DNA of 64,000 nucleotides from positions 37,245 through 101,244 of IMG/VR virus record IMGVR_UViG_3300035703_000038; one strand, given 5' to 3'. Positions 45,903-60,693 of the stretch are shown here, piece by piece (position 1 is the first letter of the stretch; each line of letters starts with the position of its first letter). Position numbers and translations under genes: made by a program. Below the pieces are notes generated by a model. That model worked only from the letters and a program-made list of their open reading frames with translations, ran no database searches and was not told the DNA's origin. Source of the stretch: a virus.

Positions 45903-46106
45903 ATGTCAGAGCACGTAAAAGATATGATTGATGCAGTTATCAACCAGGATGCCGCAGCATTCTTAGATAAGTTTGAAACTGCAATCAATACAAAGGTAGC
46001 AGCTAAGTTGGATACATTGTATCCAGAAGTTGCCCACGCAGTAATGAATCCACAAGCTGAAGCTCCTACGGTAGATGCTCCAGCTGATGTACCAGTAGAA
46101 CAATAA
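45903..46106 (+). CDS. 67: gp67-like prohead core protein
   Basis: A 67-residue protein. The helical N-terminal part (VKDMIDAVINQDAAAFLDKF, ETAINTKVAAKLDTLY) follows the pattern of T4 gp67, a small internal scaffold protein encoded directly after gene 20. The C-terminus is Ala/Pro/Val/Asp-rich and acidic. Position between the portal gene and the prohead protease gene agrees with the T4 order 20-67-68-21. It should fill the prohead core and be degraded by gp21. Confidence 0.75.
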   Translation: MSEHVKDMIDAVINQDAAAFLDKFETAINTKVAAKLDTLYPEVAHAVMNPQAEAPTVDAPADVPVEQ

Positions 46107-46116
46107 GGGGATAGTA

Positions 46117-47241
46117 ATGGCCACAATTCGCGAATCATTAAAGAAGCTAGCAGAGGTTGCAAAGCCTGTTCCTGGTGATGAGCAGGAATTTGTGGCTAAG
46201 CATGGCTTGAAGGTTATGGACTTTCAAGGTAAAGATGCACTATCAGCAGAGTCACCATATGACCACATTCTAAAGAATGTTGCTGCTATCAAGAAGCCAG
46301 GTGATCCAGGTAAGGATGACCATGGCCATGATGCACCAGGTGAGTCAGAGGCTGCCTATCATATGCCAGAATCGAGAGATGAAAAGATTGCTAAGCTTTC
46401 CATGATGATGGAGGCAACAATCGACCCAAAAGAACAACAGCTAGCTGATTCATTAAAGAGTCTGCTAGCTGAGACATTCTCTATGTACTTAAAGGCCCAC
46501 CACTTCCACTGGAATGTAATGGGTCCAGACTTTGCACAGTATCACGACTTCCTAGGTGAACTATACAAGGAAGTCCATGGAGCAGTAGATATGATTGCTG
46601 AGAACATTAGAGTTCTTGGTGAGCTTGCTCCAGGCAATCTTCGTACAATGGAATCGAGTCAATACACAGACCCACATCTAATGGTTGTAGACCTAATGAT
46701 GGATAACGAAAAGGTTATTGAATCTCTAAAGGCCTCATACAAGTTAGCTGAGTCAATGGACAGACTAGGAATCTCAAACTTCCTACAAGACAGAATCACT
46801 GTCCACGAAAAGCATCATTGGATGCTTCAAGCTATTGCTGGCGTTAAGGGTGAAGAGCCAATGCAAGAGGCAAAGCAGGTTGTTGGTGTTGAAATGCACT
46901 ATAAGCATCCAACAAAGAAGCCTTTCAAGGTTACACACTTCTCTGTTCAAGATGCTGAGCGTGGCAGAAAGGAATATGAGAAGATGGGTTATAAGCTTGT
47001 TGGTAAGAAAGCACAGATGGGTGAAGAAGCCGAACAAGTAGAAGAGATGGCTCCATTGCTACCAAAGCAAAAAGTAATTGCTAAGGACTTGCTATCAAAA
47101 GAAATGCAGAAGCGTAAAGAAGAACGTGCTGCTAAAAAGCAAGCTGGTGTTCAGGGTCGCCCTTCAACAATCAGTGCAGAACTTGAAGCTATGAGAAGCA
47201 GACATCAAAGATTCAAGAAGCAGATTATCGACAAGACATGA
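46117..47241 (+). CDS. Head-locus protein with embedded Dps/ferritin-like domain
   Basis: A 374-residue protein with a GGGGATAG ribosome site. Residues 1-100 are acidic and His-rich without a known fold. Residues about 105-250 form a Dps-like four-helix domain (LLAETFSMYLKAHHFHWNVM, FLGELYKEVHGAVDMIAENI). Compared with E. coli Dps ferroxidase ligands H51, H63, D67, D78 and E82, it keeps H131, H143, D158 and E162 at the same spacing, but has Gly at 147 with Glu at 148. Residues about 265-310 form another small domain (FKVTHFSVQDAERGRKEYEK), and the Lys/Arg-rich tail may bind DNA or the core. It occupies the place of T4 gene 68 (prohead core) between gp67 and gp21. Co-assembly into the prohead is inferred from position. 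Confidence 0.75.
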   Translation: MATIRESLKKLAEVAKPVPGDEQEFVAKHGLKVMDFQGKDALSAESPYDHILKNVAAIKKPGDPGKDDHGHDAPGESEAAYHMPESRDEKIAKLSMMMEATIDPKEQQLADSLKSLLAETFSMYLKAHHFHWNVMGPDFAQYHDFLGELYKEVHGAVDMIAENIRVLGELAPGNLRTMESSQYTDPHLMVVDLMMDNEKVIESLKASYKLAESMDRLGISNFLQDRITVHEKHHWMLQAIAGVKGEEPMQEAKQVVGVEMHYKHPTKKPFKVTHFSVQDAERGRKEYEKMGYKLVGKKAQMGEEAEQVEEMAPLLPKQKVIAKDLLSKEMQKRKEERAAKKQAGVQGRPSTISAELEAMRSRHQRFKKQIIDKT

Positions 47242-47519
47242 AAAAGTTTTTAGACTATCTTAATGAAGAGGGTGAGCTACAAGGAGCCTTGCATAGCAAG
47301 AATCCAATGAAGGTTAGAAAAGCAGCAGGTGAGCTGAGAGCAGAAATGCGTAATAAGATTCCAGCTCACCATGCAGAGAGACTAATTAGCAAGTATAGTA
47401 ACCATCCTAAGCTTGCTTCTGAGTTAAGACAGGCAAAAGAAAAGTATCCAGAAGCTGACGTGAGACCAATACTAAAGACTCACGTTAGACAAATGAAGAT
47501 ACCATATATGGGTGTGTAA
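47238..47519 (+). CDS. Small basic helical protein in head operon
   Basis: A 93-residue protein whose ATG overlaps the previous stop (ATGA). It is Lys/Arg/Glu-rich and helical (MKVRKAAGELRAEMRNKIPA, HHAERLISKYSNHPKLASEL). No family was recognised. Coupled translation with the Dps-domain protein and position in the head module suggest a core or internal head protein. Confidence 0.55.
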   Translation: MKKFLDYLNEEGELQGALHSKNPMKVRKAAGELRAEMRNKIPAHHAERLISKYSNHPKLASELRQAKEKYPEADVRPILKTHVRQMKIPYMGV

Positions 47520-47520
47520 A

Positions 47521-47787
47521 ATGACAGACGTAGTAAAATTTAAAGCAGCAGAGATTGCTCTATCAACTGCCAACAATGTCAATTTGGCAAGTGTTGTTAG
47601 ATTGCTAAATTCAAATACAACAACTGTTTCAACTATCACAATAGCCAATACAGGTGGTACAATTGCAACATTTACACTTGGATATGCTGGTACAGATGAG
47701 AGTGTAATTTACATTGCAAAGGAACCAACAGACACATTAGCTGCATCTGGTGGTACAGTTAAGGCTGCATCAGTTGCATACAAGTAA
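47521..47787 (+). CDS. Small beta-rich head-module protein
   Basis: An 88-residue protein from ATG 47521, one base after the previous stop. The sequence (STANNVNLASVVRLLNSNTT, TIANTGGTIATFTLGYAGTD, ESVIYIAKEPTDTLAASGGT) is that of a compact beta-sandwich, resembling small proteins found just before gp21 in marine T4-like phages. It may decorate or be packaged with the capsid, but no direct evidence exists in the sequence. Confidence 0.55.
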   Translation: MTDVVKFKAAEIALSTANNVNLASVVRLLNSNTTTVSTITIANTGGTIATFTLGYAGTDESVIYIAKEPTDTLAASGGTVKAASVAYK

Positions 47788-47799
47788 GAGAGAACAACA

Positions 47800-48459
47800 A
47801 TGAAACTAATCTGCGAAGTACTAGAAGAAGTACAACTAGTTACAGAAGAAAAGGAAGATGGTAAGAAGGACTTCTTTATTGAAGGTATCTTCATGCAAGC
47901 CGATCTACAAAATAGAAACGGCCGTATCTATCCAATGGCTGTAATGGAAAAAGAAGTTAACCGTTACGTTAAAGAATACGTAAACACAAAAAGAGCTTTT
48001 GGTGAGCTTGGTCATCCAGAAGGTCCACAAATCAACCTTGATCGTGTTTCACACATCATCACAGAGTTGAAGAGAGATGGATCAAATATTGTTGGTCGTG
48101 CCAAGATCCTTGAGACCCCAATGGGCAACATTGTTAGAAACATTATTCAAGGTGATGGTGCCGTAGGCGTTTCATCTCGTGGTCTGGGTTCACTAAAAGA
48201 AAGAAATGGTATCATGGAAGTCCAAGATGATTTCATGCTTGCCACAGCTGCTGATATTGTAGCTGATCCTTCAGCACCAAATGCATTTGTGACCGGTATT
48301 ATGGAAGGTGTAGAGTGGGTATGGGATAATGGTATCCTGAAGCAACAGCAGATTGAGATGTATAAGCAAGAGATTGAGAAGGCAGCAGCCAAGCCAAACA
48401 AGCGTGTTTTGGAAGAAGCAATGCTAAAAACCTGGTCTGACTTCCTGTCAAAACTTTAA
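47800..48459 (+). CDS. 21: gp21 prohead protease
   Basis: A 219-residue protein, close to T4 gp21 (212). It has the herpesvirus-assemblin-like fold features: IEGIFMQADLQNRNGRIYP at the start, the His motif FGELGHPEGP (H72), and the catalytic Ser motif GVSSRGLGSL (S125/S126). The C-terminus is helical and probably removed in activation. It cleaves the scaffold, capsid and core proteins, usually after a hydrophobic-x-Glu site. It is followed by a late promoter ahead of its substrates gp22 and gp23. Confidence 0.95.
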   Translation: MKLICEVLEEVQLVTEEKEDGKKDFFIEGIFMQADLQNRNGRIYPMAVMEKEVNRYVKEYVNTKRAFGELGHPEGPQINLDRVSHIITELKRDGSNIVGRAKILETPMGNIVRNIIQGDGAVGVSSRGLGSLKERNGIMEVQDDFMLATAADIVADPSAPNAFVTGIMEGVEWVWDNGILKQQQIEMYKQEIEKAAAKPNKRVLEEAMLKTWSDFLSKL

Positions 48460-48511: not shown

Positions 48512-49390
48512 ATGTCAGAAGTTAAAAACGAACTTCAAGAAGCAGACTTCACAGTACCAGGTGTTAATGCCTCAGTAGCAGGCCCAGTAACACCAGCTGG
48601 TGGTGAAGACTCATCAAAGGCCTCTAAGAAGGGCAAGGCTGAGATGCCAATGGAAAAGCTAAAGGCTGTCCAGGAAGATCTAGCTGCTCTATTTGATGGT
48701 TCAGAACTATCAGAAGATTTCAGAGAAAAAGCAACAGTTATTTTTGAAGCTGCTATCAACGAGAAGGTATCCGGCGTTGTAGCATCTCTAGAAGAGCAAT
48801 ACGAAGCACGTCTAACTGAAGAAGTTGGTGCTATCGAAGAAGCACTTGTAGAGAAAATTGACAGCTACCTAGACTACGTAGTAGAGCAATGGGTAGAAGA
48901 GAACAAGCTAGCAATTGAAAGCGGTATTAAGGCCGAAGTAGTTGAGAGCTTCATGGAAGGCCTAAAGGGTCTTTTCACAGAACATTATGTTGATGCTCCA
49001 CAAGAGAAGCTAGATGTTCTAGCTCAGACAGCCGCTGAAGTTGAAGAACTAAAGGCTAAGCTATCTGCATCAATCAATGAAAATATTGAACTATCTAAGA
49101 AGTTAGAATCCGTAGAAACAGAAAAGGCATTCATCGAAGTATCAGAAGGCCTAGCTGCTACACAGGTTGAAAAGCTTCGCACATTAGCAGAAGGCCTAGA
49201 GTATGCTGACGTTTCTTCATATAAGAAGAAGCTAGGCATGATCAAGGAATCATACTTTGCTGCTAAGAAGGTAGAGTCAAATGCTCAGCAACAGCTAAAT
49301 GAGGAAGTCGCTCCAACTCCAGCAGAGAAGGTAGTTGATCCAGTCATGAACAAGTACGCTGCAGCGATTTCTCGTTCGGTCCAAAAATAA
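48512..49390 (+). CDS. 22: gp22 prohead scaffold protein
   Basis: A 292-residue, strongly acidic and helical protein (LKAVQEDLAALFDGSELSED, KIDSYLDYVVEQWVEENKLA, TQVEKLRTLAEGLEYADVSS), close to T4 gp22 (269 residues). It lies between the protease and capsid genes as in T4. It forms the transient core around which gp23 assembles and is degraded by gp21. It has its own late promoter and a GGGAGAAA ribosome site, consistent with high expression. Confidence 0.93.
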   Translation: MSEVKNELQEADFTVPGVNASVAGPVTPAGGEDSSKASKKGKAEMPMEKLKAVQEDLAALFDGSELSEDFREKATVIFEAAINEKVSGVVASLEEQYEARLTEEVGAIEEALVEKIDSYLDYVVEQWVEENKLAIESGIKAEVVESFMEGLKGLFTEHYVDAPQEKLDVLAQTAAEVEELKAKLSASINENIELSKKLESVETEKAFIEVSEGLAATQVEKLRTLAEGLEYADVSSYKKKLGMIKESYFAAKKVESNAQQQLNEEVAPTPAEKVVDPVMNKYAAAISRSVQK

Positions 49391-49432: not shown

Positions 49433-50776
49433 ATGTTTTCTAACGAACAACTTCTAAAGAAGTGGCAGCCAGTTCTTGAACACGCTGACCTTGCACCAAT
49501 CAAGGATTCACTACGTAAGTCAGTAACTGCTCAGCTACTAGAAAATACAGAGCGCTCAATGGCAGAGAACGGCGGTGGCGCACGTGCTCTATTGGAAGCT
49601 GGTACACACACACCAACAAACGCAACTGGCACAGCTGGTTTCGGTGATGGCGTTTCAAACTACGATCCAGTTCTAATCAGCTTGGTTCGTCGTTCAATGC
49701 CAAACCTAGTTGCTTATGACGTTTGCGGCGTTCAGCCAATGACAGGCCCAACAGGCTTGATCTTTGCAATGCGCAGCAAGTACAGCTCACAAGCTAACTC
49801 AGCAACAGAAGCATTCTATAACGAAGCAAACACAGCCTTCTCAACGATTGCCCTAGGTAACTCAACAGTTAACCTACCAGGTTATCGTAACGTAGGTACA
49901 ATGCCAGGTACAGCAAACAACGCAGAGTCCAACACATATAACTGGGCCGGCGGTATGTCAACAAACCAGGCAGAAGCACTAGGTAACGCTTCAAACGCAG
50001 CTTTCGCAAACATGGCTTTCTCAATTGAGAAGGTTTCTGTTGAAGCAAAGAGCCGCGCATTGAAGGCAGAGTACACAATGGAATTGGCACAAGACTTGAA
50101 GGCAATTCATGGTCTAGATGCTGAAGCCGAGTTGTCAAATATTCTGCAATCAGAAATCCTTGTAGAAATCAACCGTGAAGTTATCCGCACAATTAACGTA
50201 ACAGCTAAGCGCGGTGCCAACACAACAACATCAGCCGGTACATTTGACCTAGACGTCGATGCAAACGGTCGTTGGTCAGTTGAGAAGTTCAAGGGCCTAA
50301 TGTTCCAAGTAGAACGCGAAGCTAACCAAATTGCCAAAGACACACGTCGCGGTAAGGGTAACATCATCCTTTGCTCTTCAGATGTTGCATCTGCATTGCA
50401 AATGGCTGGTGTTCTAGACTACGCTCCTGCTCTAAACAGCAACGCTCTAAACGTTGACGACACAGGCAACACATTTGCTGGTGTTCTAAACGGTCGTATC
50501 AAGGTCTACATTGACCCATACGTAACAGACAACTACATGACAGTTGGCTATAAGGGCGCAAGCGCATTCGATGCTGGTATCTTCTACTGCCCATACGTTC
50601 CACTACAGATGGTTCGTGCAGTTGGTGAAGATTCATTCCAGCCAAAGATTGGCTTCAAGACACGCTACGGCATGGTCGCAAATCCATTCGCAGAAGGTGC
50701 TGCATATGGTAACGGCGCTATGACAAAGGACGCAAACGTATACTACAGACGCGTCATCGTAAGCAACCTACTATAA
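49433..50776 (+). CDS. 23: gp23 major capsid protein
   Basis: A 447-residue protein. The family core (SLVRRSMPNLVAYDVCGVQP, MTGPTGLIFAMRSKY, ALKAEYTMELAQDLKAIHGL, DAEAELSNILQSEILVEINR) matches T4 gp23 (521 residues); the shorter length is usual in marine relatives. By analogy with T4, gp21 probably cleaves after E55 (RALLE|AGTHT), leaving a mature protein of about 392 residues. The codons are enriched in C-ending forms compared with the fibre genes, as expected for a highly expressed gene. It is followed by a strong terminator. Confidence 0.98.
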   Translation: MFSNEQLLKKWQPVLEHADLAPIKDSLRKSVTAQLLENTERSMAENGGGARALLEAGTHTPTNATGTAGFGDGVSNYDPVLISLVRRSMPNLVAYDVCGVQPMTGPTGLIFAMRSKYSSQANSATEAFYNEANTAFSTIALGNSTVNLPGYRNVGTMPGTANNAESNTYNWAGGMSTNQAEALGNASNAAFANMAFSIEKVSVEAKSRALKAEYTMELAQDLKAIHGLDAEAELSNILQSEILVEINREVIRTINVTAKRGANTTTSAGTFDLDVDANGRWSVEKFKGLMFQVEREANQIAKDTRRGKGNIILCSSDVASALQMAGVLDYAPALNSNALNVDDTGNTFAGVLNGRIKVYIDPYVTDNYMTVGYKGASAFDAGIFYCPYVPLQMVRAVGEDSFQPKIGFKTRYGMVANPFAEGAAYGNGAMTKDANVYYRRVIVSNLL

Positions 50777-50866: not shown

Positions 50867-51070
50867 ATGGTTGACAATGCTCGATATCTAACAAGATACA
50901 CTAAAGATAAAAGAACTGCTGAGCTATATGAGCTTGCAGATGGTTATGTTATCAGGTTTATTGACAATAAAGTAATTAGAGAAGATAGAGTTATTAAAGG
51001 CAAGTCTGTCTACTATGTTGTAGATGCTTGCGAGAACTGGTGTGAAGGAATAATTGATCCATGGATTTAA
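50867..51070 (+). CDS. Small protein ahead of radical SAM gene
   Basis: A 67-residue protein with a GTGAGGTG ribosome site. The sequence forms a beta-hairpin-like middle (YELADGYVIRFIDNKVIRED) and a C-terminal VVDACENWCEGIIDPWI with two Cys. The (A/D)xAENW pattern near the end resembles small proteins widespread in marine phages. Its last 10 nt overlap the start of the radical SAM gene, so the two are translationally coupled. It could be a substrate, an adaptor or an unrelated structural protein; a peptide-substrate role is only a possibility. Confidence 0.6.
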   Translation: MVDNARYLTRYTKDKRTAELYELADGYVIRFIDNKVIREDRVIKGKSVYYVVDACENWCEGIIDPWI

Positions 51071-52086
51071 TCCCAGTTGCCATAGATGAAAATGGAATCA
51101 AAAGACATCCATTATTCAACCATCTAGTTAGAATTGATCTTGACCTAACAGGACTTTGCAATAGGCAGTGTTCATTCTGCCCAAGAAGTCTTGATGCAGA
51201 CCCTGTATATCCAAATATCAATAAACAGATGTCTCTAGAAACAGTAGAGATTATAATCAAAGAATTACTCTCGATTGACTTTAAGGGTTGGTTTGAGTTA
51301 GCTGGTAGGGGTGAGAGTACTTTACATAAGAAGTTTGAAACTATTGTGGATATGATAACATCTGCCCCAGGTAGGAAGTGGAAAGTAAGATTAACTACAA
51401 ATGGTTACGAGCTTGATGATTGGTGGAACTCACCAGTTGGTATGAAACTTGATGAACTATATCTCAATAGCTATGAATCTAAAGAGCAGTATGAGGAAAG
51501 ACAACATAAATATACTAAACTGCCAAGTGGTGGATTAGTATATCATTACTATAAGCAAGATGGATTTACTATTGACCAGATTAATAGTATGCCAGCTTAT
51601 AAAGAAAATGGTAAAAGCTGGAAGCACGCATTCAATAATAGAGCTGGCTATTTCAAGCATCAAGATAGACGTAATCAACGACTAGATTACACAAACGTTG
51701 TGACACTGCCAGGTGGTGAGAAAATAAAAGTAAGTGATTCACCATGCTGGCATCCAATGAGACAGATATTCATTGACTTTGATGGTAATTATCAGATGTG
51801 CTGTAATGATTGGTCTAGTCAGATAAAAATTGGTAATGTCCATGAAAGATCATTAATGGATATGTACTTGAATGATCCAAAGATTAATAGAATCAGATGG
51901 AGATTATTGAATAAGGATAGATCACAAATTCTACCATGTGCAATGTGTGATGATATTCAAGGTGCCACAACAAACGCCATCAATACTGTTAACAAATTTA
52001 AAACATCAAGGGCTTACAAAGAACATGTTATTCCTCTTGCAAGACTTGGCAAGGACTTTGATGAAGGGTTAAAGAATGGCAAATAA
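51061..52086 (+). CDS. Radical SAM/SPASM enzyme
   Basis: A 341-residue protein. The radical SAM cluster motif CxxxCxxC is C33, C37 and C40 (LTGLCNRQCSFCPRS), followed by ELAGRGESTLH and LTTNGYEL, as in the TIM-barrel core. The C-terminal part has a SPASM-like Cys set: C229 in SPCWHPMRQIFIDFDGNYQ, C247/C248 and C293/C296 (PCAMCDD), which would hold one or more extra iron-sulfur clusters. SPASM enzymes usually modify peptides or proteins, or act in sugar and cofactor chemistry; the substrate is unknown. It overlaps the small gene upstream and the 2OG oxygenase downstream, so the three form one unit. Confidence 0.9.
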   Translation: MDLIPVAIDENGIKRHPLFNHLVRIDLDLTGLCNRQCSFCPRSLDADPVYPNINKQMSLETVEIIIKELLSIDFKGWFELAGRGESTLHKKFETIVDMITSAPGRKWKVRLTTNGYELDDWWNSPVGMKLDELYLNSYESKEQYEERQHKYTKLPSGGLVYHYYKQDGFTIDQINSMPAYKENGKSWKHAFNNRAGYFKHQDRRNQRLDYTNVVTLPGGEKIKVSDSPCWHPMRQIFIDFDGNYQMCCNDWSSQIKIGNVHERSLMDMYLNDPKINRIRWRLLNKDRSQILPCAMCDDIQGATTNAINTVNKFKTSRAYKEHVIPLARLGKDFDEGLKNGK

Positions 52087-52696
52087 AATTATTGGTGAGG
52101 GTGTGTATAATCAACCAACAAGATTTAAAACACCATGGCCATTTTATATTGTTGATAATTTTTTGAGTGATCAATTATACACTAAGTTAATTATGTCAAG
52201 ACAACATCCTAAATTTGAAGTTGTTGATTCCTGGCATGACAATGCAATACGTACTTCATCTGATACTATACCTGGCTCTCCAACAAAAAGAGCCTTACCA
52301 TTATATCAAGACAAATCTGTAACAGAACAAATATCAGCTGAAATTAAAAATAAGCTGGCAGATATTGTAGATGACAGCTTATACTGCTTACCAGATTTGA
52401 TTAGGTGTGACCCAGGATATAGGTACACAATTCACACTGATTACTATCAAAAACTTTATTCAATAGTTGTATATCTTCACCCAACAATGTCAAATGCTAC
52501 TACGCTATTAGATGTTACTAATAATGAATATGATGTTATGTGGAGACAGAATAGAGCTTTAATATTTGCACAAGAAGATCATGGCTTACATTATTATAAA
52601 AACACAACTCAATACCCAAGACTTACATTGAATGTGTATATGACTAAGGAGTATCAAGGCTTTGGAATCGTGTATATAAATAGTTCTATACAATAG
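52076..52696 (+). CDS. 2OG-Fe(II) oxygenase-like protein, paired with radical SAM gene
   Basis: A 206-residue protein, start inside the end of the radical SAM gene. The iron-binding HxD is H120-T-D122 (YRYTIHTDYYQKLYSIVVYL). The distal His is H169 or H172 (EDHGLHYYKNT) and the likely 2-oxoglutarate-binding Arg follows in PRLTLNVYM. The double-stranded beta-helix pattern fits the prolyl-4-hydroxylase-like superfamily. The joint operon suggests successive modification of one substrate, perhaps a virion protein, since this pair lies between the capsid and a tail-tube-like gene. A late-promoter box is inside its 3' end. Confidence 0.75.
   Translation: MANKIIGEGVYNQPTRFKTPWPFYIVDNFLSDQLYTKLIMSRQHPKFEVVDSWHDNAIRTSSDTIPGSPTKRALPLYQDKSVTEQISAEIKNKLADIVDDSLYCLPDLIRCDPGYRYTIHTDYYQKLYSIVVYLHPTMSNATTLLDVTNNEYDVMWRQNRALIFAQEDHGLHYYKNTTQYPRLTLNVYMTKEYQGFGIVYINSSIQ
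52675..52682 (+). promoter_or_regulatory. T4-type late promoter box
   Basis: A perfect TATAAATA followed by G lies within the last codons of the oxygenase gene, 25 bp before the tail-tube-like gene at 52708. Confidence 0.6.
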
Positions 52697-57312: not shown

Positions 57313-59021
57313 TTCTATTTAAGAAAGTACGCTGGAAGAATTTTCTATCGACTGGTAACAACTTCACCGATATTGATCTTACCAAGCACAAGTCAACTCT
57401 GATTGTAGGTACGAATGGTTCTGGTAAGTCCACCATTCTCGATGCTATTTCATTTGCTCTCTACAATAAGCCATTTAGAAAGATTAATAAGCCTCAGCTC
57501 ATTAACTCTATCAATGGTAAAGATCTTTGCGTTGAGCTTGAGTTTATAATTGGTAATGCTAATTATAAGATCGTTAGGGGCATCAAGCCTACTAAGTTTG
57601 AGATCTATAAGAACGATGTATTGCTCAACCAAGATGCTGATAGTAAAGACTATCAAGAGGTGGTTGAGAAGCAGATTGTCAAGATGAACCATAGAACATT
57701 CTCTCAAGTAGTTGTTCTAGGTTCTTCTACCTATGTTCCATTCATGCAACTTCCTGCTGCCCAGCGAAGAGAGGTTATTGAGGACTTGCTTGACATCCAA
57801 GTGTTCACTACAATGAATACTTTGTTGAAGGGTAAGGTGTCTGCTAACCAAGATGATCTCAAACAAGCAAAGTATGATAGTGACCTTATTGATGAGAAGA
57901 TCAATATTCAGAACAGCTATATCAACTCACTAAAGAAAGATGTTCAGAATAAAGTTGATGAAAATGTAGAGAAGATACAGCAGACTCAAGATGAGATTAA
58001 TGTATGCAATGTTGATGTCACCACAAAGAGTGGTACAATTGCAGAGAAGATGAAAGAGACAGCTAACCTTGAGAAGCTGCAGAAGAGAATGGAGAAGTCT
58101 GTTATCCTAAAGGAAAAGACTATTGATAAGCTATCTAAGTTGAATAAGGAAATAAAATTCTTCCATGACAATGATGATTGTCCAACTTGTAAGCAAGGAA
58201 TTCCTCATGAGTTTAAGGCTGAGTCTATTACAACAAAGCAGACACAAGTAACAGAGATCCAAGAAAACCTTACACTACTAGAAGAAGACTATAATAACAC
58301 TGTTACAGAGATCACTAGAATCAATGGAATCCAAAAAGAGATTCAAACCATTCAACATGATATCACAAAGCTACAATCTGAAATACAATCAAAGAAAAAG
58401 TTTATTGATTATCTACAATCAGAAAATGATTCACTACAATCTGATACAGCAAACGTTGATGCAGAAAAACAAAAACTAAAAGAACTACAAAAGCAAAAGA
58501 CAGAAGCTGAGGATAAGAAGCAGAAGCTGCTAGAGGAGTATGAAATTCTACAGGCAGCTTCTGCTCTCTTGAAGGATGGTGGTATCAAGACTAGAATCCT
58601 TCGTCAGTATATGCCAATCATTAATAAGCTGATCAATAAGTACTTGGCAGCCATGGACTTCTTTGTTCAGTTTGAGATTGATGAGCAGTTCAATGAAACT
58701 ATTAAGTCTAGATTCAGAGATGAGTTTAGTTACAATTCATTCTCAGAAGGTGAGAAGATGAGAATTAACCTAGCTGTTCTCTTTACATGGAGAGCTATTG
58801 CCAAGATGAGAAATAGTGCTGCCACTAACTTACTTGTCATGGATGAAGTGTTTGATAGTTCTCTTGATAGCAATGGTACTGATGAATTCTTAAAGATCAT
58901 CCAGACCCTAACTGCTGATACTAACACGTTCATTATTAGTCATAAGACTGATCAGTTGTTTGATAAGTTCCATAATGTTATTAGATTTGAAAAGACAAAG
59001 AATTTTTCTAGAATCGTATGA
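57309..59021 (+). CDS. 46: gp46 Rad50-like ATPase
   Basis: A 570-residue SMC-like protein, near T4 gp46 (560). Walker A GTNGSGKST is at residues 34-42. Long coiled coils flank a zinc-hook CPTC (about 291-294). The ABC signature SFSEGEKMRINLA is near 477 and Walker B LLVMDEVFD near 508. It powers the gp47 nuclease in end resection. The stop overlaps the next gene's ATG by 4 nt, linking it to the oxygenase cluster. Confidence 0.96.
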   Translation: MILFKKVRWKNFLSTGNNFTDIDLTKHKSTLIVGTNGSGKSTILDAISFALYNKPFRKINKPQLINSINGKDLCVELEFIIGNANYKIVRGIKPTKFEIYKNDVLLNQDADSKDYQEVVEKQIVKMNHRTFSQVVVLGSSTYVPFMQLPAAQRREVIEDLLDIQVFTTMNTLLKGKVSANQDDLKQAKYDSDLIDEKINIQNSYINSLKKDVQNKVDENVEKIQQTQDEINVCNVDVTTKSGTIAEKMKETANLEKLQKRMEKSVILKEKTIDKLSKLNKEIKFFHDNDDCPTCKQGIPHEFKAESITTKQTQVTEIQENLTLLEEDYNNTVTEITRINGIQKEIQTIQHDITKLQSEIQSKKKFIDYLQSENDSLQSDTANVDAEKQKLKELQKQKTEAEDKKQKLLEEYEILQAASALLKDGGIKTRILRQYMPIINKLINKYLAAMDFFVQFEIDEQFNETIKSRFRDEFSYNSFSEGEKMRINLAVLFTWRAIAKMRNSAATNLLVMDEVFDSSLDSNGTDEFLKIIQTLTADTNTFIISHKTDQLFDKFHNVIRFEKTKNFSRIV

Positions 59022-59566
59022 TATGGTCTAAGCAATACTTCAACAGTAGTTGGGTTGAGAATATACACAAAGTGTGCGAAAAGTATCCAGATGAACCTGG
59101 TGATTCGCATGTGTTATCATTAGATGGTAATACTGTAATGCCAGAAAACTATTTGATGAAAATTATTTCCTCTAAGAAAGAACCTCAAATAGTGGAGGCA
59201 TTGAAAGATATTGCAATGGCTGCAAACGAACGAATGTTTGGTTTTAACCTCTGGTTTGATATTGGTGCATTCCAATACACAACATATAAATCAGAACTGC
59301 AAATGGAATATGACTGGCATAGTGATTCAGTATGGGTCGTTAAGCCAGTTGTTCCCAAACTTACAGTAATTGTTGGCTTGACAGACAAGGACAATTATCA
59401 AGGTGGTGATTTTGTTCTTGCTGGTGGCAAAAAAAATAAAACTATCAAGTTAACTGCTGGTGAGGCAATAGTATTTCCATCGATTGCACTGCATAAGGTA
59501 ACGCCAGTAACAAGTGGAACAAGAAACACTTTAGTTGCTTGGTTTAAAGGACCAAGGTGGGTTTAA
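59018..59566 (+). CDS. 2OG-Fe(II) oxygenase (P4H-like), first of the cluster
   Basis: A 182-residue protein, start overlapping the gp46 stop. Iron ligands are H101 and D103 (YDWHSDSVW) and distal H159 (IALHKVTPV). R169 (GTRNTLVAWF) is the likely 2-oxoglutarate anchor, with GGDFVLAGG and a closing GPRWV. The fold type matches single-domain prolyl-4-hydroxylase-like oxygenases common in marine T4-like phages. The substrate is unknown. It lies in tandem with two relatives, each starting within a few bases of the previous stop. Confidence 0.85.
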   Translation: MIWSKQYFNSSWVENIHKVCEKYPDEPGDSHVLSLDGNTVMPENYLMKIISSKKEPQIVEALKDIAMAANERMFGFNLWFDIGAFQYTTYKSELQMEYDWHSDSVWVVKPVVPKLTVIVGLTDKDNYQGGDFVLAGGKKNKTIKLTAGEAIVFPSIALHKVTPVTSGTRNTLVAWFKGPRWV

Positions 59567-59567
59567 A

Positions 59568-60137
59568 ATGATACCTAAGATTGTAGTAACACCAAATTAC
59601 TTTCCATCCACATGGTGCGATAATGTTAACAGCTGGATCATGGATAATGTACCAGCAGATCCATCGTTTGGTAAGACTGGAGTAAGAAGATGTGATGTTA
59701 GATTCTTATCATCTAACATGAAACCATTTGATGGCGTCTTCAAATCACTAATCGATTACACAAAAGCTAATATTGATAAGCTAGGCATTGATGTAGATTA
59801 TCAGATTGATGGAGCAATCCAACATATTACATACCTACCAGGCCATGGTGTGGGCTGGCATGATGATACAATGAATTATAAAATGGCTCTAAACAATCCT
59901 AGATATAGCAACCTTAAAACTGACAGAAAGCTTTCCCTAACTGTGATGCTATCAGATTCGACTGACTATGAGGGTGGTGATTTTATTTTTGAGCCTGGCT
60001 ACCCACTTCCAGCTAAAGTAGAAGGTAAGGGTACAGTCGCTTTATTTACATCATACACTCAACATAAGGTAGAACAGATAACATCTGGTGTAAGAAACAT
60101 TCTGTTTATCTTTATTACTGGTCCAACTTGGAAATAG
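59568..60137 (+). CDS. 2OG-Fe(II) oxygenase (P4H-like), second of the cluster
   Basis: A 189-residue protein from ATG 59568, one base after the previous stop. Iron ligands are H98 and D100 (VGWHDDTMN) and distal H166 (TQHKVEQIT); R176 (GVRNILFIF) is the probable 2-oxoglutarate ligand. GGDFIFEPGYPLP and the ending GPTWK match its neighbours. It contains CDVRFLSSN near residue 45, with a counterpart CETRFVTFN in the third copy, so copies two and three are the closer pair. Confidence 0.85.
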   Translation: MIPKIVVTPNYFPSTWCDNVNSWIMDNVPADPSFGKTGVRRCDVRFLSSNMKPFDGVFKSLIDYTKANIDKLGIDVDYQIDGAIQHITYLPGHGVGWHDDTMNYKMALNNPRYSNLKTDRKLSLTVMLSDSTDYEGGDFIFEPGYPLPAKVEGKGTVALFTSYTQHKVEQITSGVRNILFIFITGPTWK

Positions 60138-60138
60138 T

Positions 60139-60693
60139 ATGTCCATCATAACTATTAAGTCAGCTATTTCAAAGGACCTACTTGACAGTTGGGATTCCAC
60201 AACCGAACGAATACCGACACGCCAAGGTCAGACTGTTGATAGTGGTTTGGAATCGGGTATATCAAACGATAAAAGTGTGAGGTCCTGCGAGACCCGGTTT
60301 GTAACTTTTAACAAGCACAGAAAATTTTATCTTGATATTCTTAATAACATTTATCCATTTATCGACTTCTATCATTATGCATTTGATGTTGAACTCTATA
60401 GAGTGCTAGAGATACAACATGTAACGTATTTTAAAGACGATCATTATGTGAGACACGTTGATACTATCTTTAACAACAAAACATCACGGCAAAGAAAAAT
60501 TAGTTTAGTTTTAATGTTATCAGATAGAAGTGAGTATAGTGGTGGTGAACTTATCATTAATGATGAGCCTGTTGATCTTGAGAAAGGTGATATTGTTATG
60601 TTTAAGCCAACAACATTTCACAGCGTTGAGAAGGTTCAGCAGGGCGTGAGAAAAACTTTAGTGATGTGGGCTCTGGGTCCACATTGGAAATAG
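60139..60693 (+). CDS. 2OG-Fe(II) oxygenase (P4H-like), third of the cluster
   Basis: A 184-residue protein one base after the previous stop. Iron ligands are H106 and D108 (VRHVDTIFN) and distal H161 (TFHSVEKVQ); R171 (GVRKTLVMW) is the probable 2-oxoglutarate ligand. LVLMLSDRSEYSGGELII and GPHWK follow the family pattern. All residues needed for activity appear to be kept, so this is not a decaying copy. Confidence 0.85.
   Translation: MSIITIKSAISKDLLDSWDSTTERIPTRQGQTVDSGLESGISNDKSVRSCETRFVTFNKHRKFYLDILNNIYPFIDFYHYAFDVELYRVLEIQHVTYFKDDHYVRHVDTIFNNKTSRQRKISLVLMLSDRSEYSGGELIINDEPVDLEKGDIVMFKPTTFHSVEKVQQGVRKTLVMWALGPHWK

Follow-up and report, generated by a model that had tools for sequence, protein, structure and literature searches.

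Encapsulins hold ferritin-like cargo within an HK97-type shell. The phage gene described here is a functional parallel that differs in its shell, which would be a DNA-filled virus head, with a Dps domain as the putative cargo. Phage Dps proteins, the leader-tagged internal proteins of phage T4 and one virion-associated phage Dps are already known, and phage ferritin-like proteins have so far been interpreted as host-tolerance genes or iron-linked entry aids. The virion-associated protein, the Dps of Proteus phage Privateer (QIN94861), came to light when purified virions were analysed by mass spectrometry (PMC7881722) and is like the cargo predicted here, but Privateer is a podophage whose Dps is unfused and lies among replication genes; with a T4-like phage Dps it shares only ~27-31% identity. 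Stand-alone phage Dps proteins (PHROG 3636; an IMG/VR clade encoded between gp16 and gp17; Synechococcus phage S-SRM01) fall by tree in the same clade as the domain described here and mostly share its Gly at the fifth ligand place. They differ in being ~144 aa long, in having no leader or flanks, in lying away from the prohead-core locus and in keeping a full-length B-C connection. The best match in both sequence and fold is the Pseudomonas aeruginosa Dps PA0962 (PDB 8FF9-8FFD), which has the same four ligands at the same spacing; this bacterial protein stands alone, has Glu as its fifth-place residue and keeps its B-C connection at full length, and the identity is ~32-37%.

The protease gp21 of T4 cuts after L/I-x-E (PMC9026906). 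The T4 proteins IPI-IPIII and Alt carry a leader ending in x-E that is cut by gp21, and their cargo is kept in the head; the first ten residues of IPIII are enough for head targeting (PMC9026906, PMC9958956). T4 researchers have suggested that the capsid-targeting sequence lets evolution load various proteins into heads (PMC9026906). IPI-IPIII and Alt contain no Dps and are encoded by separate genes elsewhere in T4, whereas head entry is predicted for the present protein from its sequence. T4 gp68 is encoded at the same place, between gp67 and gp21, but is digested in T4, and no homology to it was found for the flanks of the present protein in Pfam, PHROG and tblastn searches. A literature search that included few subscription journals turned up no paper in which Dps is part of a T4-type prohead-core protein, or in which an acidic linker takes its place.

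The gene lies in a 64,000-nucleotide stretch (the window) of the IMG/VR record of a T4-like virus of bacteria. We consider, with a probability of about one half, that it encodes a core or internal head protein with Dps as cargo, which gp21 trims and whose Dps module remains close to the DNA within the head, taking up iron and peroxide. It is also a candidate natural case of the loading proposed for T4 (PMC9026906).

Genomic Context of the Dps-Encoding Gene

The gene order is gp20 (portal), a gp67-like ORF, the Dps gene, two small ORFs, gp21, gp22 and gp23 (Table 1). The same locus was recovered in ~20 contigs when IMG/VR was searched with the 374-aa protein and with the next ORF. The nearest gp23 is that of Stenotrophomonas phage DLP_6 (70%), and the N-terminal part of the window gp23 has an ALLE-AGT site of gp21 type, read off the sequence. 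The sequence-only reading had placed the gene where T4 has gene 68; this holds as a statement of position between the gp67-like ORF and gp21, which two extra small ORFs precede.

Table 1. Features of the Dps-encoding gene and its neighbours, with positions in the window.
Feature	Position	Strand	Basis or remark
gp67-like small prohead core ORF	45903..46106	+	Follows gp20; weak match to PHROG 1064 (E 0.07)
Whole gene, 374 aa, central Dps domain, prohead-core position	46117..47241	+	ORF call, ATG start
Putative capsid-targeting leader MATIRESLKKLAE, aa 1-13, candidate gp21 cut after E13	46117..46155	+	L11 and E13 invariant
N-terminal region, aa 14-99, modelled with low confidence; its last residue is the conserved E99	46156..46413	+	pLDDT mostly 44-78; alignment with Dps-minus contig L010 parts at the end of the region
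Dps/ferritin-like domain, aa 104-241	46426..46839	+	Pfam, phmmer, AlphaFold, Foldseek, dN/dS
Iron-site residues H131 (46507-46509), H143 (46543-46545), D158 (46588-46590), E162 (46600-46602); G147 (46555-46557)	46507..46602	+	Alignment
Shortened B-C connection, aa 166-188	46612..46680	+	Residue counts; DSSP of model
C-terminal region: folded module aa 252-303 (strand-strand-helix-strand) and basic helical tail aa 304-374	46870..47238	+	Model, charge
Next ORF, 93 aa, start MKKFLDYLNE-E	47238..47519	+	Kept in 22 loci
Small ORF ahead of gp21	47521..47787	+	PHROG 19805 (function-less annotation), E 2e-07
gp21 prohead protease, presumed processing enzyme	47800..48459	+	PF03420, 2.5e-42
gp22 prohead scaffold	48512..49390	+	PF25623, 4.3e-71
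gp23 major capsid protein	49433..50776	+	PF07068, 3.9e-148

The non-Dps flanks and basic tail described earlier were confirmed, with a net charge of +10 over residues 311-374. The module at residues 252-303 was modelled by AlphaFold with pLDDT 90-96 across most of its length, and the C-terminal region had no match in Pfam. No Pfam, PHROG or tblastn match was found for the flanks of the gene (tblastn against the 50,697 phage records of INPHARED). Alignment by hhalign to proteins encoded at the same place was weak (DLP_6, E 0.002, probability 14; phiM12, E 0.001, probability 21) and is no more than suggestive of homology between the N-terminal region and those proteins.

Identity and Fold of the Dps Domain

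Residues 104-241 are a genuine Dps domain, as had been proposed from the sequence alone. Pfam PF00210 (Ferritin) matched residues 112-240 with an E value of 5.7e-20 (72 bits against a cut-off of 24.5), PHROG 3636 matched residues 106-240 with an E value of 1.4e-25, and the top PDB sequence match was the P. aeruginosa Dps 8FF9 (phmmer E value, 2.5e-20). An AlphaFold model from 64 sequences gave most of the domain a pLDDT of 94-98 and showed a four-helix fold (helices 104-133, 139-166, 186-213, and 217-241), and the best 50 PDB fold matches listed by Foldseek were all Dps, with TM to target of ~0.8. Judged by dN/dS, which was 0.07-0.17 in Dps-plus pairs, the module is under purifying selection.

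The spacings of the iron ligands H131, H143, D158, and E162 (12, 15, and 4) are identical to those of H37, H49, D64, and E68 in P. aeruginosa Dps, and all four residues were invariant across 80 phage and 81 cellular Dps. The fifth place, four residues after the second His, was Gly in 63 of the 80 phage proteins and Glu in 71 of the 81 cellular ones, a contrast that is perhaps sharper than in Dps overall because the cellular set was chosen by similarity to the 374-aa query. In the window protein the fifth carboxylate is absent, with Gly at 147 and Glu148 adjoining. Because most phage Dps share this Gly while keeping the four ligands, we regard it as a mark of the phage clade and not as decay. 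In the crystal structure of P. aeruginosa Dps, the four ligands hold both irons without a fifth protein ligand (PMC10002758), and Nostoc Dps4, with Asn at the fifth place, binds two irons all the same (PMC6675082). Since this position varies in proven Dps, a Gly there was not used to exclude membership of the family, and Gly147 need not disable the predicted iron site. The sequence-only reading was right about the ligands, their spacing and the G147/E148 pair, but its count of "four of five" does not stand as a defect.

A second departure lies between helices B and C. The fixed points of the two helices are 23 residues apart in the prohead group (4/4 rows) and at least 30 apart in the remaining 76 phage rows and the 81 cellular ones; a loss of seven residues in the BC-helix region was thus confined to the prohead-fused Dps among 80 phage and 81 cellular rows. 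DSSP assigned no BC helix in the AlphaFold model, which is of a monomer. Escherichia coli Dps without its BC helix still assembles a cage (PMC3179174), and the missing helix was therefore not taken to exclude Dps membership. A 12-mer of the window Dps is possible.

Exchange of the Dps Module Among Related Phages

Eight of the related contigs carry the Dps domain (L001-L005, L023, L024, and L026) and 12 do not (L006-L008, L010-L012, L014-L016, L018, L021, and L028). The Dps-minus alleles have the same N-terminal 95-100 residues, followed by an acidic Asp/Glu-rich linker in the place of Dps (the L006 contig stops within this linker). Compared with L010, whose linker has 31 residues and a net charge of -24, DNA identity is ~90% up to ~46413, is then lost, and is restored from ~46870. 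The C-terminal modules likewise differ among alleles. On this comparison, Dps is a swappable module within one gene, and the shared flanks with an acidic linker replacing Dps support the earlier suggestion of a structural or internal protein that acquired Dps. Four Dps-minus sister records (37-90 kb, perhaps incomplete) had no ferritin-like gene elsewhere, and the 101-kb record of the window itself (perhaps incomplete) had no second one. The C-terminal halves in L004, L018, and L019 contain extra small modules between joints of EEAEQVDE/EQIDE type, which indicates that the same gene takes up modules besides Dps.

Presence or absence of Dps changes once on the gp21 DNA tree and three times on the gp22 tree, a difference that is expected with recombination. 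The patchy presence and the three changes on the gp22 tree would also fit a functionless insertion, recently captured or decaying. Against this, the module is under purifying selection, the reading frame is open in all Dps-plus contigs, and the domain originates within a large phage Dps clade and not from a recent host gene, which makes such an insertion highly improbable.

Putative Leader and Candidate gp21 Sites

The alleles start with MAT[IM]RESL[KT]KL-x-E-VAKP, and K-L-[AVT]-E13 is present in every one of them. The K-L-x-E13 leader looks like a match to the gp21 cleavage pattern, as in the capsid-targeting leaders of T4, so that the search for hydrophobic-x-Glu sites supported a leader site at the level of pattern. 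At 13 residues, the window leader is longer than, and divergent from, the ten-residue leader of T4 IPII/IPIII, which it resembles loosely. The next ORF is closer to these T4 leaders through its start MKKFLDYLNE, and its MKKFLDYLNE-E was the sole match to a narrow T4-leader pattern among the 99 ORFs of the record; it probably encodes another core or internal protein.

Conserved Glu residues flank the Dps module (MMME99-A and MQE251-A), and the second border reads V-[DKN]-E-A in Dps-minus alleles. Cutting by gp21 at E99 and E251 would be a guess, given that these sites are M/V-x-E and not L/I-x-E. The Dps helices themselves contain L/I-x-E triplets (E119, E148, E162, E169, and E212), at which gp21 could in principle destroy the domain. 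All gp21 sites were judged by conserved position alone, the L-x-E motif being too short for enrichment statistics.

These internal triplets bear on a reading in which the protein is scaffold only: Dps would be a building block of the prohead core, rigid or self-assembling, that gp21 digests, as it does T4 gp22, gp67, and gp68, and that leaves the head with no role in iron chemistry. The core position, the substitution of an acidic linker for Dps in sister phages, and the fate of T4 gp67 and gp68, which are cut to peptides, gp68 not being essential (PMC9958956), agree with it. However, no Dps-plus allele has lost any of the four iron ligands, which phage Dps proteins conserve generally and which a mere spacer would not need, and stand-alone phage Dps is common. 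We regard the scaffold-only role as rather unlikely.

Phage Dps Proteins and the Origin of the Domain

Hundreds of IMG/VR contigs encode Dps, mostly as stand-alone proteins of ~144 aa in those read. The best 80 phage Dps were ~50% identical to the window Dps and the best cellular Dps ~41%, and the phage rows lay on one side of the tree, as a clade apart from the sampled cellular Dps (S-SRM01 and L117, described below, had long branches, and details are unsure). Recent capture of a host gene was rejected on these results. When the query was led by cellular Dps, phage Dps reached at most ~44%, with L358 (64%) as the sole exception. A full-length tblastn search of INPHARED returned the stand-alone Dps of S-SRM01 as its only match.

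Among 155 loci that were sampled by similarity and are not a census, 61 have Dps closely upstream of the large terminase gene gp17 of T4-like phages, nearly always directly after gp16 (small terminase). The spacing of gp16, Dps, and gp17 was often within ~20 bases (e.g., L130, L132, L133, L139, L145, L149, L151, and L180). These Dps proteins have no head leader, which would suit action in the infected cell, where a late Dps would protect phage DNA, replicating or in concatemers, or else the dying host, against iron and peroxide, and the location would reflect late expression only. Gut-phage Dps proteins have been interpreted in the same way, as oxidative-stress helpers (PMC8008677). The window Dps, however, is fused within a leader-like protein at the core position, and L117 has a similar design; for this domain, action confined to the infected cell is unlikely.

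In another phage, L117 (5965-7398), a 477-residue reading begins with a leader-like MKTFSKLQE-A that runs straight into Dps (PHROG 3636; E value, 6e-34). Several small modules come next, with V/I/L-x-E sites between them (VDLSE, VELDE, EQIQE, and EQVAE). The predicted protein is like a gp21-cut polyprotein. The tree pairs L117 with the window group (97/84), both with long branches. IMG/VR scans with the L117 protein and with divergent and cellular-led alignments found no further Dps fusion beyond these two. Among its best fold matches Foldseek also listed "Prohead protease" proteins from uncultured phages, over a Dps-sized stretch (BFVD A0A6J7WIS1, A0A6J7WPK9, and A0A6J7XDU5); a Dps-protease fusion, if true, would be an independent tie of Dps to the prohead, but these are names only and were given no weight.

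T4-leader-like starts were also seen near stand-alone Dps genes. They are MKKFKDFIVEE in L236 (3243-3878), followed by a nucleotidyltransferase-like domain just below the Pfam cut-off, MKTFQDYITEE in L286 (2665-3294), and MKNLYESIKQVISE in L122 (7048-8964).

Proposed Function

In the proposed mechanism, residues 1-13 would probably serve as a capsid-targeting leader, through which the protein joins gp22 and gp67 in the prohead during assembly. Cleavage by the protease gp21 behind E13 would probably free the protein of this leader, and further cuts may fall close to the borders of Dps, at E99 and E251. Through H131, H143, D158, and E162, the Dps module would probably bind and oxidise Fe(II), most likely with H2O2; this oxidation would protect the genome against Fenton damage while it is packaged or just after its ejection, and the basic tail may hold the module on DNA. 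The analysis shows the Dps fold and iron-site residues, the location, the conservation, the selection and the exchange of Dps for an acidic linker, whereas we infer head entry, processing, oligomer state, iron chemistry, and benefit. The head-cargo reading is favored by the identity of the Dps domain, its four conserved ligands, the location in the head gene cluster, the invariant K-L-x-E and the low dN/dS, as well as by the flanks shared by Dps-plus and Dps-minus sisters, the leader-Dps design of L117, the Dps genes in packaging operons and the virion Dps of Privateer. It is opposed by the loose 13-residue leader, the M-x-E borders, the internal L/I-x-E triplets and the shortened BC region, and by the dispensability of Dps for sister phages and the lack of detected homology to T4 gp68.

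Action within the head is favored because a Dps cage of ~9 nm (PMC3179174) should not pass the tail intact. The same size weighs on the idea of a Dps that is injected along with the DNA, either to protect the genome on its arrival or to supply the cell with iron. Delivery into the cell is indeed known for T4 internal proteins and for leader fusions (PMC9026906), but the cage would be too big for a T4-type tail tube unless dismantled, which would drop its iron. Moreover, Vi01-like virions contain a ferritin-like protein, and these phages, the subject of the only published test of ferritin- or iron-linked entry that the literature search found, show no dependence on TonB or FeoB (PMC10892097). 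An injected effector or iron carrier is accordingly judged improbable.

A broader form of the head-cargo reading is put forward tentatively: the prohead-core position may hold a cargo cassette, leader-tagged and cut by gp21 between modules, into which varied domains are slotted, here a Dps that would guard virion DNA. The close relatives with and without Dps form a natural pair for testing the role of Dps in the virion. If the head-cargo reading is true, virion survival would be linked to iron chemistry, which bears on the iron load of phages.

Other Features of the Window and Related Contigs

In the related contig L008 (7424-8340), the C-terminus of gp21 differs, and the 82-aa ORF behind it weakly matches the I-TevI DNA-binding domain; a homing element is probably present at gp21. 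The window contains up to four genes resembling 2OG-Fe(II) oxygenases, three of them above the Pfam cut-off (52076-52696, 59018-59566, 59568-60137, and 60139-60693), and a SPASM/radical-SAM-like gene just after gp23 (51061-52086). Taken together, these genes suggest a phage rich in iron enzymes.
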